From: Candidatus Zhuqueibacterota bacterium
GTDB taxonomy: Bacteria; Zhuqueibacterota; Zhuqueibacteria; Zhuqueibacterales; Zhuqueibacteraceae
Length of the DNA: 64,000 nucleotides
Reading direction: 5' to 3'
Assembly: GCA_003576975.1 (NCBI GenBank)
Contig: QEVD01000003.1
Span: 1 to 64,000, forward strand
Translations under genes and position numbers: made by a program
Shown here: positions 19,920-27,156 of the stretch, one piece after another
Numbering within the stretch: position 1 is the stretch's first letter
How the letters are laid out: every line of letters begins with the position of its first letter
The notes under the pieces: generated by a model
Databases searched by the model: none
What the model saw: only the letters and a program-made list of their open reading frames with translations
What the model was told of the DNA's origin: nothing

Positions 19920-22676
19920 ATGAATCAAAACCCTGAACAAATCGCGCGCGACAACATTGACCGGATGCTTCAGGCCGCAGGATGGGCGGTTCAGGTCGTC
20001 AGCAAATTCAATCCCAGCGCCAGCCTTGGCGTGGCGGTGAAAGAATATCCCACCGACACCGGCCCGGCTGATTATATTCTTTTTGTCGAGCGCCAACCGC
20101 TTGGCGTAGTCGAAGCCAAGCGCGAAGAAGAAGGCCATCGTCTCACCGTGCACGAGGCGCAGACGGAAGTCTACTCGCGCAGCAAATTGAAATGGGTTGC
20201 CAACAACCAACCGCTGCCGTTTGTTTATGAAAGCACCGGCGTGGTCACGCGCTTCACCGATTGTCGCGATCCCAAGCCGCGTTCGCGTCCGGTTTTCTCC
20301 TTTCACCGTCCCGAAACTTTTCAGGAATGGCTGAAACAAGGCGAGCCGCTGCGGGCACGGTTGCAGCGACTCCCAATGCTCGATCCCGCAGGACTGCGCG
20401 ATTGCCAGATCAAAGCCATCGATGAACTGGAAAAATCGTTCAAGGCCAGCAAACCTCGTGCGCTCATTCAAATGGCCACCGGCAGCGGCAAGACGTTTAC
20501 CGCCATCACCTTCATCTACCGGCTGCTCAAATTCGCCAACGCCCAGCGCATTTTGTTTCTCGTCGATACCAAGAATCTGGGTGAGCAGGCGGAGCAGGAG
20601 TTCATGCACTTCAAGCCGAGTGACGACAATCGTTTGTTTACCGAGCTTTACAATGTGCAGCGCTTGAAATCGAGTTACGTGGCTGCCAATAATCAGGTGT
20701 GCATCAGCACCATCCAGCGCATGTACTCGATTCTCAAAGGCGAGGAGCTGGACGAAAGCGCCGAGGTGACTTCGCTGAACGAAATTCAGCAAACCGGTGG
20801 CGAGAAGACGGTGGAGTACAACGAAAAAGTGCCGCTGGAATTTTTCGATTTCATCATCATCGACGAATGCCATCGCTCGATTTACAACCTATGGCGGCAG
20901 GTGCTGGAATATTTTGACGCGTTTCTCATCGGTCTCACCGCTACGCCGGACAAGCGCACGTTCGGCTTTTTCAATGAAAACGTCGTGAGCGAATACTCGC
21001 ACGAAGACGCGGTGGCTGACGGCGTCAATGTGCCGTATGATGTTTATCTCATCGAAACCGCGGTCACGCAAAAAGGCGGGCGCATTCCGGTGCAAGAATA
21101 TGTTGACAAGCGCGACCGGCTGACGCGGCGCAAGCGCTGGGAGCAGCTTGACGAAGAAGTTGTGTATGGCGCGAAGCAGCTTGATCGCGACGTGGTCAAT
21201 CCCAGTCAGATTCGCAACGTCATTCGCGCGTTTCGCGAAAAGTTGCCGGAGATTTTCCCCGGCCGCAATGAAGTGCCGAAAACGCTGATCTTTGCCAAGA
21301 CCGACAGCCACGCCGACGACATCATTCAAATCGTGCGCGAAGAGTTCGGCGAAGGCAATGAGTTCTGCAAAAAGGTGACGTATCGCGCCGAGGAGGATCC
21401 CAAGTCCCTGCTCGCCTCGTTTCGCAACGATTATTATCCGCGCATCGCGGTGACGGTGGACATGATCGCCACCGGCACGGACGTCAAGCCGCTGGAATGC
21501 CTGCTGTTCATGCGCGAGGTGAAATCGAAAAACTATTTCGAGCAAATGAAAGGCCGCGGCACGCGCACGTTTACCAAAGATGATTTACAAAAAGTGACGC
21601 CCTCGGCGATCGGCAACAAAACACATTTCGTCATCATCGATGCCGTCGGCGTGACCAAATCTATCAAAACCGACAGCCGGCCGTTGGAGCGCAAGCCCGG
21701 CGTGGCGTTGAAGAATTTGCTCATGAACGTCACGCTCGGCAACCGGGACGAAGACACGCTCACTTCATTGGCCAATCGCTTGACGCGGCTGGAAAAGGAC
21801 ATCACGCCCGCGGAGCGCCAGAAATTTCAGGAGCTGGCCAGCGGCAAGAATCTCAATCAAGTTGTGCATGAGTTGTTGGAAGCTCACGATCCCGACAAAG
21901 TTGAAGAGAAGGCGCGGGAAAAATTCACATTGAGCGCTGAGGCCGCGCTTACGCCGCAGCAAACCCAGGTCGCGCAGCAAGAGTTGATTCAAGAAGCGAC
22001 ACGCATTTTTGACAGCGGTGAGCTACGCGATTATATTGAAACCGTGCGCCGCAATCATGAGCAGATTATCGACTATAGCAATTTGGATCAGGTGGAATTT
22101 GCCGGCTGGGATCAACAGGCCAAAGTGAATGCCGAGAACCTCGTCAAGGATTTTGGGGACTTCATTGCGGCTCACAAAGACGAGATCACGGCGCTCAAGA
22201 TTTTTTACAACCAGCCGTTTCGCCGGCGCGAAGTGACGTACCGCATGATCGACGAAGTGTTGCAGTCGCTCAAAGCAAACCGGCCCTATCTCGCACCGGT
22301 GCGGGTGTGGGAAGCTTACGAGCAATTGGAGAAAGTCGATGGCCGCTCGCCGCGCAATGAGCTGACCGCGCTGGTGGCGTTGATCCGCCGCGTGTCCGGC
22401 ATCGACGACAAGCTGACGGCGTTCGAAAACATCGTCAATCGCAATTTTCAGAAATGGGTGTTTGAAAAGAACGCCGGCAACAAGCAATTTACCGAGGCGC
22501 AAATGGAATGGCTGCGCATGATGAAGGAGCACGTGATCAGCTCGGTGCATTTGGAGCGCGACGATTTGGATTATGCGCCGTTTGACGCCCAAGGCGGCAT
22601 TGGCAGAATGCACCAGTTGTTCGGCGAAGAAATGGACATAATGATTGATGAATTGAATGAGGCATTGGCGGCGTGA
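19920..22676 (+). CDS. hsdR: type I restriction enzyme R subunit (EcoEI-like)
   Basis: Motor and nuclease subunit: translocates DNA using ATP and cuts unmethylated invading DNA as part of an R-M-S complex. It has an N-terminal nuclease motif D51...E65-A-K67 (GPADYILF ... GVVEAK). The SF2 helicase core shows Walker A MATGSGKT (about residue 185), DECHRS (about 313) and LTATPDKRT. The C-terminal part ending GGIGRMHQLFGEEMD...ELNEALAA is of the EcoEI R type. ATG 19920 (918 aa) follows the promoter; the longer frame to 19809 runs back almost into the terminator. The stop TGA lies one base before a REP array. The last 27 codons are repeated in diverged form at 23655-23736. Confidence 0.93.
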   Translation: MNQNPEQIARDNIDRMLQAAGWAVQVVSKFNPSASLGVAVKEYPTDTGPADYILFVERQPLGVVEAKREEEGHRLTVHEAQTEVYSRSKLKWVANNQPLPFVYESTGVVTRFTDCRDPKPRSRPVFSFHRPETFQEWLKQGEPLRARLQRLPMLDPAGLRDCQIKAIDELEKSFKASKPRALIQMATGSGKTFTAITFIYRLLKFANAQRILFLVDTKNLGEQAEQEFMHFKPSDDNRLFTELYNVQRLKSSYVAANNQVCISTIQRMYSILKGEELDESAEVTSLNEIQQTGGEKTVEYNEKVPLEFFDFIIIDECHRSIYNLWRQVLEYFDAFLIGLTATPDKRTFGFFNENVVSEYSHEDAVADGVNVPYDVYLIETAVTQKGGRIPVQEYVDKRDRLTRRKRWEQLDEEVVYGAKQLDRDVVNPSQIRNVIRAFREKLPEIFPGRNEVPKTLIFAKTDSHADDIIQIVREEFGEGNEFCKKVTYRAEEDPKSLLASFRNDYYPRIAVTVDMIATGTDVKPLECLLFMREVKSKNYFEQMKGRGTRTFTKDDLQKVTPSAIGNKTHFVIIDAVGVTKSIKTDSRPLERKPGVALKNLLMNVTLGNRDEDTLTSLANRLTRLEKDITPAERQKFQELASGKNLNQVVHELLEAHDPDKVEEKAREKFTLSAEAALTPQQTQVAQQELIQEATRIFDSGELRDYIETVRRNHEQIIDYSNLDQVEFAGWDQQAKVNAENLVKDFGDFIAAHKDEITALKIFYNQPFRRREVTYRMIDEVLQSLKANRPYLAPVRVWEAYEQLEKVDGRSPRNELTALVALIRRVSGIDDKLTAFENIVNRNFQKWVFEKNAGNKQFTEAQMEWLRMMKEHVISSVHLERDDLDYAPFDAQGGIGRMHQLFGEEMDIMIDELNEALAA

Positions 22677-22677
22677 A

Positions 22678-22801
22678 GTAGGGGCGCACCGCCGTGGGGG
22701 CGCACCGCCGTGGGGGCGCACCGCCGTGGGGGCGCCCGGCCGTAGGGGCGCCCGGCCGTAGGGGCGCACCGCCGTGGGGGCGCACCGCCGTGCGCCCCTA
22801 C
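22678..22801 (+). repeat. REP array: seven tandem 16-bp half-units
   Basis: Begins GTA, then seven 16-base units of the type GGGGCGCACCGCCGTG (two central units read GGGGCGCCCGGCCGTA), and closes with CGCCCCTAC. It starts with GTAGGGGCG and ends with CGCCCCTAC, the two ends of the 28-bp palindrome found at 23616 and 26230. It therefore looks like one REP palindrome whose left arm has been amplified. It starts one base after the hsdR stop and lies just upstream of the RAYT gene. Confidence 0.9.
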
Positions 22802-22844
22802 AGGTTATACAAAACATAACCATTAACCAGGGGTGAGGGGTATC

Positions 22845-23600
22845 ATGTCATACGATCCGGAAATCCATCACCGTCGATCCATTCGATTGAAGGGATACGA
22901 TTATTCCCAGGCCGGCGCGTATTTCATCACAATTTGTACCTACAATCGCAATTGTATCTTCGGTGAAATTCGCGATGGCCAAATGCACCTGAATGAAATC
23001 GGTAGAATCGTCGAGACCGAATGGTTGAAAACCGCCGAGATCCGCGATAACGTTGAATTGGATGCCTTTGTGGTCATGCCGAACCATTTACACGGGACCA
23101 TCATTATCACCGGCAAAGCGGAAACGCATGATGCCGTTGATGCAAATGATTCCCCAAATTCCGTTGATATGACCGTAGGGGCGGACAGCCGTCCGCCCGA
23201 CCGTGGCATAAAATCAAATGTAGGGGCACACGGCGATGCGCCCGACCGTGGCATAAAATCAAATGTAGGGGCGCACGGCGATGCACCCGACGATGATATA
23301 GGATTACACGTAGGGGCGCACGGCGGTGCGCCCCTACAGCGCAAACCGAAATCCATCGGATCGATCATTGCCGGATTCAAATCCACCGTTACCAAACAAA
23401 TCAATACCATTCGAAATACACCGGGCGCGCCGGTGTGGCAGCGCAATTATTACGAACATATTATTCGCAATGAAGAGGCGTTCAACCGCATCCAACGATA
23501 TATCATCGAAAATCCGGCGCAATGGCAATACGACCAGGAAAATCGCAATCATATTTCCGACGAAGACAAAAAACGATTTTGGAAAGAACATTTGGGTTGA
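22845..23600 (+). CDS. REP-associated tyrosine transposase (RAYT, Y1/HUH family)
   Basis: Single-strand transposase of the IS200/IS605-related TnpA_REP group, which bind and cut REP palindromes. Family marks: RRSIRLKGYDYSQAGAYFIT at the N-terminus, the HUH motif as HLH in VVMPNHLHGTIII (about residue 77-90), and the catalytic Tyr helix region YYEHIIRNEEAFNRIQRYI (about 200-220). ATG 22845 (251 aa) follows AGGGG; a GTG at 22833 is in frame. Between HUH and Tyr lie about 54 extra residues coded by four REP units (VGADSRPPDRGIKSN and variants). Without them the protein has the usual length of about 197. It sits inside the RM operon, flanked by REPs. Activity is uncertain, as the insert splits the catalytic domain. 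Confidence 0.93.
   Translation: MSYDPEIHHRRSIRLKGYDYSQAGAYFITICTYNRNCIFGEIRDGQMHLNEIGRIVETEWLKTAEIRDNVELDAFVVMPNHLHGTIIITGKAETHDAVDANDSPNSVDMTVGADSRPPDRGIKSNVGAHGDAPDRGIKSNVGAHGDAPDDDIGLHVGAHGGAPLQRKPKSIGSIIAGFKSTVTKQINTIRNTPGAPVWQRNYYEHIIRNEEAFNRIQRYIIENPAQWQYDQENRNHISDEDKKRFWKEHLG
23175..23337 (+). repeat. four in-frame REP units inside the RAYT gene
   Basis: Units start at 23175, 23220, 23265 and 23310, a 45-base period (15 codons). Each begins GTAGGGGC(G/A) and is read Val-Gly-Ala. The last unit has the full closing end GCGCCCCTAC. The spacer CCGTGGCATAAAATCAAAT is identical in the first two units and changed in the third. Confidence 0.92.
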
Positions 23601-23615
23601 TTGTTTGTGACAATC

Positions 23616-23643
23616 GTAGGGGCGCACGGCCGTGCGCCCCTAC
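23616..23643. repeat. perfect 28-bp REP palindrome
   Basis: Two 14-base arms, GTAGGGGCGCACGG and its exact complement, lie 15 bases after the RAYT stop. This is the complete form of the element whose parts occur in the other clusters. Confidence 0.93.
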
Positions 23644-23654
23644 GGATGACAACA

Positions 23655-23736
23655 TGGCATCGATAGGATGCGCCGGTTGTTCGGCGCGGAAATGGACACG
23701 ATGATTGATGAATTGAACGAGGCATTGGCGGCGTGA
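23655..23736 (+). pseudogene. duplicated 3' end of hsdR
   Basis: By my count about 70 of 81 bases match 22596-22676, coding RMRRLFGAEMDTMIDELNEALAA and a stop where hsdR has RMHQLFGEEMDIMIDELNEALAA. The two copies are offset by 1,060 bases and bracket the REP array, RAYT and 28-bp palindrome. The copy ends one base before the hsdS ATG, so it probably preserves the original hsdR-hsdS junction (GCGTGAAATG). No start codon or ribosome site makes it a gene. Confidence 0.85.
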
Positions 23737-23737
23737 A

Positions 23738-25189
23738 ATGATAAAAAGAAATTCTATTGAAAATTTGCCAAACGGATGGTTATCAGTTGTTTTCAGTGAA
23801 GCCATCGACAAAATCCCTGCTCAGGACAAAAAGATAAAGCAGAAAGACTACCTGGAATTTGGCCAGATACCAATAATTGACCAAGGACAAGAATTTATAG
23901 GAGGCTACACTAACGACATTAGCAAAAGAATTGAATGTAACCTCCCCGTTGTTGTCTTTGGTGATCACACCAAGGCCGTCAAACTAATCTCTTTCCCATT
24001 CGCACCTGGAGCAGACGGGGTAAAAATCATAAAGCCATTAGAAGTTTATGATCCAAAGCTTTTTGCGTATTTTGTTCATGTATTAACCAAGAAAATTCCT
24101 GATAGAGGATATGCTCGACACTTTCAATTCATAGAGAAATCAGAAATTTCCCTTCCTCCCCTCGCCGAGCAGCACCGCATCGTTACCAAAATCGAAGAGC
24201 TTTTTTCCGATTTGGATGCCGGCATCGCCAGTTTGAAGCAAGCGCAGGCCCAGCTTAAAACCTACCGCCAGGCGGTGTTGAAATACGCCTTCGATGGCAA
24301 GCTCACCGCCGCGTGGCGCGAGCAGAACAAACCCGAGCCGGCAGAAAAATTGCTGGCGCAAATCAAAGCCGAGCGCGAAAAGCAGTACCAGCAAAAGCTC
24401 GCGGAATGGCAAAAAGCCAGCGCCGAAAGCAAAAACAAAAAGAAACCGCCTAAGCCACAAAAGCCGAAAGAATCCTCGCCGCTGACGGAAGCGAAGCTGG
24501 CGGAGTTGCCGCAACTGCCGGAGGAGTGGATATGGGGAACTGTGGGGGAAATAGCTTCGTCAATGAAAAATGGAATCTATAAGCCGAAAGAAATCTATTC
24601 CGAAAGTGGTATCGCATGTTTAAGAATGTACAATATCGACAATGGAAGAATTTTATGGTTTGATATCAAGCGAATGAACCTGGAAGAAAAGGAAATAGAT
24701 GAATATGAGTTAAAACCAGGAGATCTGTTAGTCAACAGAGTCAATAGTCGGGAGTTGGTTGGCAAAACTGCATTGATTCCAAAAACAATGGAAAGAAGTG
24801 TGTATGAGAGTAAAAATATTAGATTGAGATTAACAGACCGATTTGTTGGCGCATTTGTCAATTATTGGTTTTTGCTTAGTGCTAACGCATTTTTCAATAG
24901 AAATGCTCAGCAGACTGTTGGCATGGCGTCGATCAATCAGGATCAATTAGGCAAAATGCCTTTGCCAATTTGTTCACTTACAGAACAACACCAAATCGTC
25001 CAAGAAATCGAAAGCCGCCTCTCGGTATGCGACAAATTGGAAGAAAGCATCAAAGAGAGTCTGCAAAAAGCCGAGGCGCTGCGGCAGAGCATTTTAAAAA
25101 AGGCGTTCGCGGGCAAGTTAGTGCGGCAAGATCCCCACGACGAGCCGGCGGAGAAGTTACTGGAGCGCATTCGGGCGGACAAATCGTAG
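23738..25189 (+). CDS. hsdS: type I restriction-modification specificity subunit
   Basis: DNA-recognition subunit of the RM complex. It has two target-recognition domains (residues about 10-145 and 255-415), each followed by a conserved helical spacer: PPLAEQHRIVTKIEELFSDLDAGIASLKQAQ... and CSLTEQHQIVQEIESRLSVCDKLEESIKES.... The first spacer runs on into a long Lys/Gln/Glu-rich coiled segment with a low-complexity KNKKKPPKPQKPKESS linker. The length of 483 aa is typical of a full two-TRD S subunit. ATG 23738 is one base after the TGA of the hsdR remnant, suggesting translational coupling. TRD-coding DNA is more AT-rich than the flanks, as is common for exchangeable TRDs. Its stop codon TAG lies within the REP sequence GTAGGGGCG. 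Confidence 0.93.
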   Translation: MIKRNSIENLPNGWLSVVFSEAIDKIPAQDKKIKQKDYLEFGQIPIIDQGQEFIGGYTNDISKRIECNLPVVVFGDHTKAVKLISFPFAPGADGVKIIKPLEVYDPKLFAYFVHVLTKKIPDRGYARHFQFIEKSEISLPPLAEQHRIVTKIEELFSDLDAGIASLKQAQAQLKTYRQAVLKYAFDGKLTAAWREQNKPEPAEKLLAQIKAEREKQYQQKLAEWQKASAESKNKKKPPKPQKPKESSPLTEAKLAELPQLPEEWIWGTVGEIASSMKNGIYKPKEIYSESGIACLRMYNIDNGRILWFDIKRMNLEEKEIDEYELKPGDLLVNRVNSRELVGKTALIPKTMERSVYESKNIRLRLTDRFVGAFVNYWFLLSANAFFNRNAQQTVGMASINQDQLGKMPLPICSLTEQHQIVQEIESRLSVCDKLEESIKESLQKAEALRQSILKKAFAGKLVRQDPHDEPAEKLLERIRADKS

Positions 25190-25275
25190 GGGCGTATCGC
25201 ATACGCCCCCATATGGCATGCGCCCTCGTATTGCGTACGCCCAAAACGACGAGGGCGCACGGCTGTGCGCCCCAA
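25186..25275 (+). repeat. REP cluster at the end of hsdS
   Basis: Starts GTAGGGGCGTAT..., includes ATACGCCCC and a closing GGGCGCAC-GGCT-GTGCGCCC hairpin. It is a variant of the REP family with a different centre (GTATnGCATAC). Its bases 2-4 are the hsdS stop codon. Confidence 0.85.
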
Positions 25276-25281
25276 CCAATC

Positions 25282-25485
25282 GTCCACGAAATCGTCCAAG
25301 AAATCGAAAGCCGCCTCTCGGTTTGCGACAAATTGGAAGAGAGTATCAAAGAAAGCCTGCAAAAAGCTGAGGCGCTGCGGCAGAGCATTTTAAAAAAGGC
25401 CTTCGCGGGCAAGTTAGTGCCGCAAGACCCCAACGACGAGCCGGCGGAGAAGTTACTGGAGCGCATTCGGGCGCAGAAATTGTAG
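25282..25485 (+). pseudogene. duplicated C-terminal end of hsdS
   Basis: Codes IVQEIESRLSVCDKLEES...EALRQSILKKAFAGKLVPQDPNDEPAEKLLERIRAQKL and stop, nearly identical to the hsdS end apart from changes such as RQDPHD to PQDPND. It has no target-recognition domain and no start of its own. An open frame extends back to 24970, but that part is out of frame with hsdS and is a shadow. It could serve as a recombination partner for hsdS. Confidence 0.85.
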
Positions 25486-25592
25486 GGGCGTATGGCATAC
25501 GCCCCCATATGGCATACGCCCTCGTATCGCATGCGCCCCCGCATTGCGTATGCCCCAAAACGACGAGGGCGCACGGCCGTGCACCCCAACAA
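25482..25592 (+). repeat. second REP cluster, between the hsdS copy and hsdM
   Basis: Same type as 25186-25275 with one extra unit (GCATGCGCCCCCGCATTGCG). It again supplies the TAG stop of the truncated hsdS copy. It is followed by four short direct repeats of AACGAGCCC up to 25637, directly before hsdM. Confidence 0.85.
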
Positions 25593-25647: not shown

Positions 25648-27156
25648 ATGAACAACACCTCCTCCATCGTCTCCAAAGTCTGGAACTTCTGCCACACGCT
25701 GCGCGATGACGGCGTGAGCTACGGCGAGTATTTGGAACAGTTGACTTATTTGTTGTTTCTCAAGATGGCGGATGAATACGCCAAGCCGCCGTACAACCGC
25801 AAATCCAACATTCCAAGAGCATATAATTGGGAAAGCTTGCGCGAAAAAAAGGGGGCGGAATTGGAAGAGCATTACGTCAAACTGCTGCGCGAGCTGGGGC
25901 AGAAGTCCGGCATGCTGGGGCAAATCTTTTTCAAGGCGCAGAACCGCATTCAAGATCCGGCCAAGCTGTTCAAGATCATCGACCTGATCGACCGTGAAAA
26001 TTGGGTGATGATGGGCGCGGACGTGAAGGGCGAAATTTACGAAGGCCTGCTGGAGAAAAACGCCGAAGACGTGAAAAGCGGTGCCGGCCAATATTTCACG
26101 CCGCGACCGCTGATTCGCGTGATGGTAGAATGCCTGCGGCCCGAGCCGAAGAAGACCATTGCCGATCCGGCCTGCGGCACCGGCGGGTTCTTTTTGGCGG
26201 CGTATGATTTTTTGATTGGGACGAATGCTGTAGGGGCGGACGGCCGTCCGCCCCTACGGTTGGATAAACAGGAAAAGGAATTCCTCAAATTCAAAACCTT
26301 TCGCGGCTGGGAGATCGTGCCGGATACGTACCGGTTGTGTTTGATGAATTTGTTTTTGCACAACATCGGCGACATGGAAAGCGAGCCGCCGATCGCGCGC
26401 AACGATTCACTCATCGCCGACAGCGGCGAGCGCTTCGATTACGTGATGACCAACCCGCCCTTCGGCAAGAAAAGCAGCATGACTTTTACCAACGAAGAGG
26501 GCGAGCAGGAGCGGGAGGATTTGACGTACAACCGGCAGGATTTCTGGGCGACGACTTCGAACAAGCAGCTTAATTTCGTGCAACACATTCGCACAATGCT
26601 GAAGATCGACGGCAAGGCTGCAGTCGTTGTGCCGGACAATGTTTTGTTCGAGGGCGGCGCCGGCGAAACCATTCGCAAAAAACTGTTGGCGAGCACGGAT
26701 TTACACACGATTTTGCGCCTGCCGACGGGAATTTTCTACGCGCAAGGCGTGAAAGCGAACGTGATTTTCTTCGACAACCGCCCCGGCAGCAAAGAGGTGG
26801 CGACGAAGGATGTTTGGTACTACGATTACCGCACCAACGTGCATCACACGAAGAAAAAGAATCCGTTGCAGTTTGAAGATTTACAGGATTTCGTCAAATG
26901 CTACAATCCGGAAAATCGCTACAAACGCAAGCCCACGTGGTCGGAGAAAAATCCGGAAGGCCGCTGGCGGAGGTTCACCTATGATGAGATCATCGCCCGC
27001 GACAAAACGAGTTTGGATATTTTTTGGCTGAAAGACGAGAGCCTCGCCGATCTCGACAACCTGCCCGATCCCGACGTGCTGGCCGGGGAGATTGTTGAAA
27101 ATCTCGAAGCGGGGTTGGAAAATTTTAAGGAAATTGCTGAGAAGCTGGGGAGATGA
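25648..27156 (+). CDS. hsdM: type I restriction-modification methyltransferase subunit
   Basis: Methylates adenine at the site chosen by HsdS, using S-adenosylmethionine. It has an N-terminal helical HsdM_N domain (residues about 7-140), AdoMet motif DPACGTGGF (about 175), and the N6-adenine catalytic motif as NPPFGKK (about 270). The family's TFRGWE and RLCLMNL segments follow motif I. Between motif I and TFRGWE lies an extra TNAVGADGRPPLRLDK, made by an in-frame 28-bp REP. The 502-aa length is normal otherwise. ATG 25648 lacks a clear ribosome site. TATAAT at 25640-25645 is too close to the start for a normal leadered promoter. Gene order R-S-M is uncommon. Confidence 0.93.
   Translation: MNNTSSIVSKVWNFCHTLRDDGVSYGEYLEQLTYLLFLKMADEYAKPPYNRKSNIPRAYNWESLREKKGAELEEHYVKLLRELGQKSGMLGQIFFKAQNRIQDPAKLFKIIDLIDRENWVMMGADVKGEIYEGLLEKNAEDVKSGAGQYFTPRPLIRVMVECLRPEPKKTIADPACGTGGFFLAAYDFLIGTNAVGADGRPPLRLDKQEKEFLKFKTFRGWEIVPDTYRLCLMNLFLHNIGDMESEPPIARNDSLIADSGERFDYVMTNPPFGKKSSMTFTNEEGEQEREDLTYNRQDFWATTSNKQLNFVQHIRTMLKIDGKAAVVVPDNVLFEGGAGETIRKKLLASTDLHTILRLPTGIFYAQGVKANVIFFDNRPGSKEVATKDVWYYDYRTNVHHTKKKNPLQFEDLQDFVKCYNPENRYKRKPTWSEKNPEGRWRRFTYDEIIARDKTSLDIFWLKDESLADLDNLPDPDVLAGEIVENLEAGLENFKEIAEKLGR
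26230..26257. repeat. perfect 28-bp REP palindrome inside hsdM
   Basis: GTAGGGGCGGACGG and its exact complement, read in frame as Val-Gly-Ala-Asp-Gly-Arg-Pro-Pro-Leu. It differs from the 23616 copy only at the base pair in the GCGGAC/GCGCAC position and its partner. It lies in a loop between conserved methyltransferase segments. Confidence 0.93.

Follow-up and report, generated by a model that had tools for sequence, protein, structure and literature searches.

In-frame REP units in the beta3-alphaC loop of a RAYT transposase gene of Candidatus Zhuqueibacterota and of its homologues

A RAYT (TnpA_REP) gene of Candidatus Zhuqueibacterota bacterium carries four units of its own REP family in its reading frame. 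The gene lies in the window, the 64,000-nucleotide stretch of contig QEVD01000003.1 analyzed here (positions 1 to 64,000). Its core is under purifying selection, and the REPs in its loop match those in the flanks and keep the frame. New here are a window gene with a longer array and the observation that, at these loci, the loop is the part densest in REP feet.

The gene is present as a single copy in its genome and is located between hsdR and hsdS in a type I restriction locus. Its main features are as follows.

22845..23600, + strand, RAYT / TnpA_REP gene, 251 aa from the ATG at 22845, frame intact (alternative in-frame start: GTG at 22833)
23082..23093, + strand, HUH motif NHLH, from the translation, (nearly) invariant across alignments
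23436..23441, + strand, conserved WQ motif (W198 Q199 in VWQRNYY), from the translation and alignment
23499..23516, + strand, catalytic tyrosine motif YIIENP, with the class 2 signature Y---NP (PMC6006769)

In a profile search of the open reading frame, matches to NCBIfam NF047646 REP_Tyr_transpos (72.5 bits, cut-off 80) and Pfam Y1_Tnp (20.2 bits, cut-off 23) were obtained in pieces, and both scores remained just below the cut-off because the insert splits the matches. Together with the motifs and the fold described below, these split family matches bear out the identification of the gene as a RAYT. An IS200/IS605 TnpA (subclass 1.1) was considered and rejected, as it would be expected to have Y---Q and multiple near-identical copies, while the gene has Y---NP and one copy. 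More distant RAYT-like genes are found in the same genome at C628 6234-6629 (NHYH motif; no REP insert on full reading), C177 2428-2766 and C23 47811-48131. Searches for RAYT relatives returned four distant matches and no near one in plasmids, and just two matches, both distant, in viral contigs.

Judged by motifs and architecture, the gene is a Y1 (HUH) RAYT of RAYT group 4, which corresponds to TnpA_REP subclass 2.4; all 100 group 4 sequences of Bertels were assigned to this subclass by Quentin et al. 2018 (PMC6006769). The same study describes double-foot REPs (GTAG...CTAC) for subclass 2.4, a beta3-alphaC region that varies and is predicted to lie at the periphery, and REPs that interrupt tnpA_REP genes without breaking the frame, in general in the part from HuH to Y. 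It reports in-gene REPs for no other subclass apart from a few in 2.7 and 2.8. The original prediction had held such in-gene copies to be unusual; this is wrong, as they are already a published trait of the subclass. The window gene resembles subclass 2.4, as set out there, in its NHuH, WQ and Y---NP motifs, its variable beta3-alphaC insert, its patchy spread over many phyla, its double-foot flanking REPs and its in-frame in-gene REPs. It differs from the consensus given there by one substitution in the tyrosine motif (YIIENP instead of YIxNNP) and has L instead of I, F or V in an otherwise identical NH[IFV]H motif. Other palindromes in frame within coding regions include intragenic REPs and Rickettsia palindromic elements, and in-frame REPs in other genes were reported by Di Nocera et al. 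2013 (PMC3733652). There, however, the palindromes lie in unrelated host genes, whereas the window units lie inside the cognate transposase's own gene.

The array was detected by Tandem Repeats Finder at 23175-23333 (period 45, 3.5 copies, score 199). Four units of 45 bases each had been predicted; the four starts and the period of 45 were recovered, but the fourth unit is the bare 28-bp REP palindrome and not a complete 45-mer.

23175..23219, + strand, REP unit 1, in frame, VGADSRPPDRGIKSN; GTAG foot intact, 3' foot degenerate; shared with orthologue L009
23220..23264, + strand, REP unit 2, in frame, VGAHGDAPDRGIKSN; missing from orthologue L009
23265..23309, + strand, REP unit 3, in frame, VGAHGDAPDDDIGLH; missing from orthologue L009
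23310..23337, + strand, REP unit 4, in frame, double-foot 28-mer GTAGGGGCGCACGGCGGTGCGCCCCTAC, read as VGAHGGAPLQ; matches L009 over 28 nt

Direct reading confirmed that all four units are translated as Val-Gly-Ala in the RAYT frame, which stays open, and that about 54 residues are added between HLH and Tyr. The 3' foot is degenerate in units 1 to 3 (CTAC changed to GACC or GACG), and both feet are intact in unit 4 alone. The REP immediately 3' of the gene (23615-23643) shares 97% identity with unit 4 over 29 nt, and units 1 to 3 are 76 to 79% identical to unit 4. The proposed derivation of the units from the gene's own REP is therefore supported, as the flanking REPs match at 76 to 97% identity.

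An AlphaFold model built on 57 homologues has a confident Y1 core, with ten-residue mean pLDDT above 90 over residues 21-90 and 171-230. Confidence is low from about residue 90 to 166, and residues 109-159 mostly have pLDDT below 50. As this stretch follows the HUH strand (beta3, 81-88) and precedes the helix 171-190 (alphaC), the insert is modeled as a disordered surface loop from beta3 to alphaC, and the earlier placement of it within the catalytic domain misleads. The closest solved fold was PDB 4er8, the Escherichia coli RAYT with bound REP hairpin (Foldseek E 3.2e-5). A PDB sequence search had given no more than a weak similarity to 4er8 alongside chance matches to capsid proteins, and the fold search settled on 4er8. 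Like the window gene, this best structural match (E. coli TnpA_REP, subclass 2.2) is flanked by REP hairpins with GTAG feet, but it has DHLH, YIHYNP, no beta3-alphaC insert and REPs with bulged stems.

A syntenic orthologue (L009) occurs in genome G006, a relative from the window's family with a separate assembly; the cores are 91% identical. It has exactly two in-frame units, the counterparts of units 1 and 4, and no differences from unit 4 over 28 nt. The window array is thus longer, at four units with a 45-bp period, than that of this subclass 2.4 orthologue. Units 2 and 3 would then be 45-bp steps added in the window lineage, a direction we infer because gain there is simpler than two losses in the orthologue, and the four units probably arose by 45-bp tandem duplication, the simplest route from two.

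REPs also surround the gene. The pattern GTAGGGGCGNNNGGCNGT (up to 3 mismatches) occurred 26 times in the window, compared with 4.9 +/- 2.4 in shuffles, and nearly all matches fell within 22.68-26.26 kb. The RAYT gene is flanked by REPs at 22774-22801 and 23616-23643.

22678..22801, no strand assigned, upstream REP grown into a tandem array of seven 16-bp half-REPs that ends with one intact REP half
23616..23643, no strand assigned, downstream flanking double-foot REP with GTAG and CTAC feet, GTAGGGGCGCACGGCCGTGCGCCCCTAC, from pattern search and alignment
26230..26257, no strand assigned, REP of the RAYT's family inside the neighboring hsdM (25648-27156), in frame, VGADGRPPLR

The orthologue has one intact REP at the site of the upstream half-REP array. 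The hsdM REP is of the kind described in PMC3733652. It is single in the window, and the same site in G006 (C256 15434-15461) has grown by 15-bp steps (VGADGVGAHGVGAHGGAPLR, read as VGADG-VGAHG-VGAHGGAPLR). Expansion steps were therefore 45 bp (RAYT) and 15 bp (hsdM of G006) in coding DNA and 16 bp in noncoding DNA; the coding steps are multiples of three and the noncoding one is not, which is what frame selection predicts. The window genome has three exact 28-bp double-foot REPs of the RAYT's family, none of them away from this locus: one is within the RAYT gene, one directly downstream of it and one in hsdM. Six 29-bp REPs of other types are on other contigs. Four of the five exact double-foot REPs of G006 are likewise at the syntenic locus.

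Gene tails are duplicated at the locus as well. The end of hsdR (22605-22680, ~75 bp with the stop codon) is repeated at ~85% identity at 23665-23741, beyond the RAYT gene and its REPs, so that the two copies bracket the whole REPtron, and a related arrangement is present in G006. A second instance of a gene tail duplicated together with REPs is found at 24989-25538, where the hsdS 3' end and REP-like 17-bp arrays form a 296-bp tandem duplication (92%), apparently single copy in G006.

The loops of homologues were surveyed in two samples, with a foot counted as exact GTAGGGG or CCCCTAC. The first comprised 178 distinct relatives (176 usable) from many phyla, going by their record titles, e.g., Chloroflexi, Bacteroidetes, Cyanobacteria, Planctomycetes and Zixibacteria. 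As its query contained the loop and could have favored VGA loops, a second, loop-blind sample of 107 genes was collected by the N-terminal domain alone, and the result held. Part of this survey may overlap figures in the supplements of PMC6006769 and PMC3733652. Overall, an exact REP foot was present in the loop of 201 of 280 non-redundant homologues (72%). The insert is thus not unique to the window, the point on which a comparison with homologues had been proposed: loop feet are common, the orthologue has two units, and the supposed rarity of in-gene copies does not fit these counts. In the second sample, foot density was 11.3/kb in the loop and zero in the 44.6 kb of N and C domains. Outside the gene it was 2.5-3.1/kb at 0-100 bp on either side and ~0-0.6/kb beyond 500 bp. 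Feet were found in 78 of these 107 loops, compared with 54 of 107 genes with a foot within 300 bp outside the gene.

Loops also resembled their own surroundings. The loop matched its own flanks in 51 of 107 genes of the second sample and a random other locus in 3 of 107 (Fisher p 2e-15). In the first sample, 89 of 176 loops matched their own flanks at a score of at least 16, compared with 4 N-domain and 7 C-domain segments; about half of the loops had no match to their own flanks at threshold. Among pairs with cores 60-65% identical, the loop's own flank beat the relative's flank in 95%, counting only loops that match their own flank. Many loops contain degenerate or non-REP tandem peptides. 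Long tandem peptides of non-REP or REP-half type, up to nearly 200 residues, occur in L010, L012, L034, L265, L331, L332 and others, examples being repeats of IGQAQ, GAETA, NND and GDSLLGEPL. The RAYT beta3-alphaC loop is a general hotspot for in-frame tandem expansion.

Codon usage in the loops indicates conservation of the DNA rather than of the peptide. VGA tripeptides were encoded by GTA-GGG-GC in 141 of 161 cases (88%), whereas codon usage in these genes would lead one to expect ~4%. The stems of 29 distinct 28-mers were diverse, but all inner seven pairs were retained in 16 and one was lost in 13; only these inner pairs were counted because the 28-mers had been chosen by their ends. Judged from these sequences, the persisting feature is the hairpin, not the peptide, and the encoded loop peptide is probably of little consequence. 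The foot was read in the Val-Gly phase in 131 genes and in the second open phase in 43; no gene had it in the TAG-stop phase. A FastTree tree of 117 labelled genes required at least 18 phase changes, fewer than in shuffles (mean 25, minimum 22), so phase is partly inherited. For this reason, the frame bias was not accepted as selection for the peptide. At least 18 changes imply, within the accuracy of the tree, that REPs entered the loop or were replaced in it repeatedly.

With moderate confidence, we attribute the array to REPs of the RAYT's own family that settled in a tolerant disordered loop, as they did in the flanks, through enzyme-driven copying, frame selection and slippage. In this scheme, the RAYT would recognize single-stranded DNA by its GTAG and hairpin, and would itself drive the local copying or gene conversion that places REPs and keeps those of loop and flank similar. 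Frame selection would discard the other insertion outcomes in the loop, and slippage at the GC-rich palindromes could expand the arrays, in multiples of three inside genes and in other lengths outside. REPs and RAYTs also occur together: across the genomes of one phylum, double-foot REPs were present in 30 of 56 with a group-4 RAYT and in 8 of 77 without (p 6e-8). Because loop and flank REPs are alike, self-targeting of in-gene REPs by the RAYT appears more plausible. Tolerance alone is hard to square with a foot density in the loop that is approximately 4-fold that of the adjacent 100 bp, or with the five genomes (G022, G038, G068, G081 and G109) in which every exact double-foot REP detected was within a RAYT loop. 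The excess of loop REPs over flanks therefore leaves room for selection that keeps a substrate or regulatory site within the gene.

Such selection is possible but rather doubtful as the main explanation: the in-gene REP could be a master copy of the substrate that moves horizontally with the RAYT, or an autoregulatory site at which the enzyme binds its own gene or mRNA. It would account for the higher foot density in the loop than in the flanks, the strong GTA-GGG-GC bias, the widely varying stems that stay paired (at least 6 of 7 inner pairs in 29 of 29 28-mers) and the five genomes with exact double-foot REPs in RAYT loops alone. In the window's family, exact double-foot REPs were limited to the two carriers of this RAYT, G000 (the window genome) and G006, and none were found in family members G001-G005. 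However, 27-28% of loops lack an exact foot, many hold the degenerate or non-REP peptides mentioned above, and the frame constraint may itself slow the loss of loop REPs relative to intergenic DNA. REP-rich genomes also occur: G391 has 66 copies and at most 7 RAYT matches, so that most copies in genomes of this type must lie elsewhere. We therefore suggest only tentatively that the group-4 RAYT loop might hold a useful master copy of the substrate, kept by DNA-level selection or enzyme-driven homogenization, with the peptide irrelevant.

A role at the mRNA level, with the units forming a hairpin that delays translation or stabilizes the transcript, is improbable. The 181-nt stretch did fold better than shuffles (z -5.2 as RNA, -5.1 as DNA), but any REP array folds, such scores fail to separate an mRNA role from palindromes, and a DNA hairpin accounts for the same signal, which is also present in copies outside the gene. 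An Rfam search gave no family match, which likewise counts against this role.

Inactivation of the enzyme by the insert, with the gene decaying, had also been suggested and is very improbable. The 54 extra residues within the Y1 fold and the sub-threshold family scores could point in this direction, but the scores reflect a split match, NHLH, WQ and YIIENP are kept, the core fold is confident, and a REP foot lies in the same loop of 72% of homologues. Core dN/dS between the window RAYT and L009 was 0.158, and as both orthologues carry the insert, the protein has been maintained while carrying it. Least probable of all is an assembly artefact of the repeat region: the genome is fragmented (776 contigs) and copy number 4 comes from one assembly, but units 2 and 3 are distinct from one another as well as from units 1 and 4, the independent G006 assembly has units 1 and 4 in frame in L009, and the trait is present in hundreds of homologues.

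The gene bears on the spread of REPs and on how the match between a RAYT and its REP is maintained. An enzyme and its own substrate in one reading frame form a compact system for studying this matching, as loop and flank REPs change together, phase restricts the outcomes, and copy number differs among close relatives. The survey figures allow REPs that are merely tolerated to be separated, by recoding of the loop, from those that are selected or homogenized.
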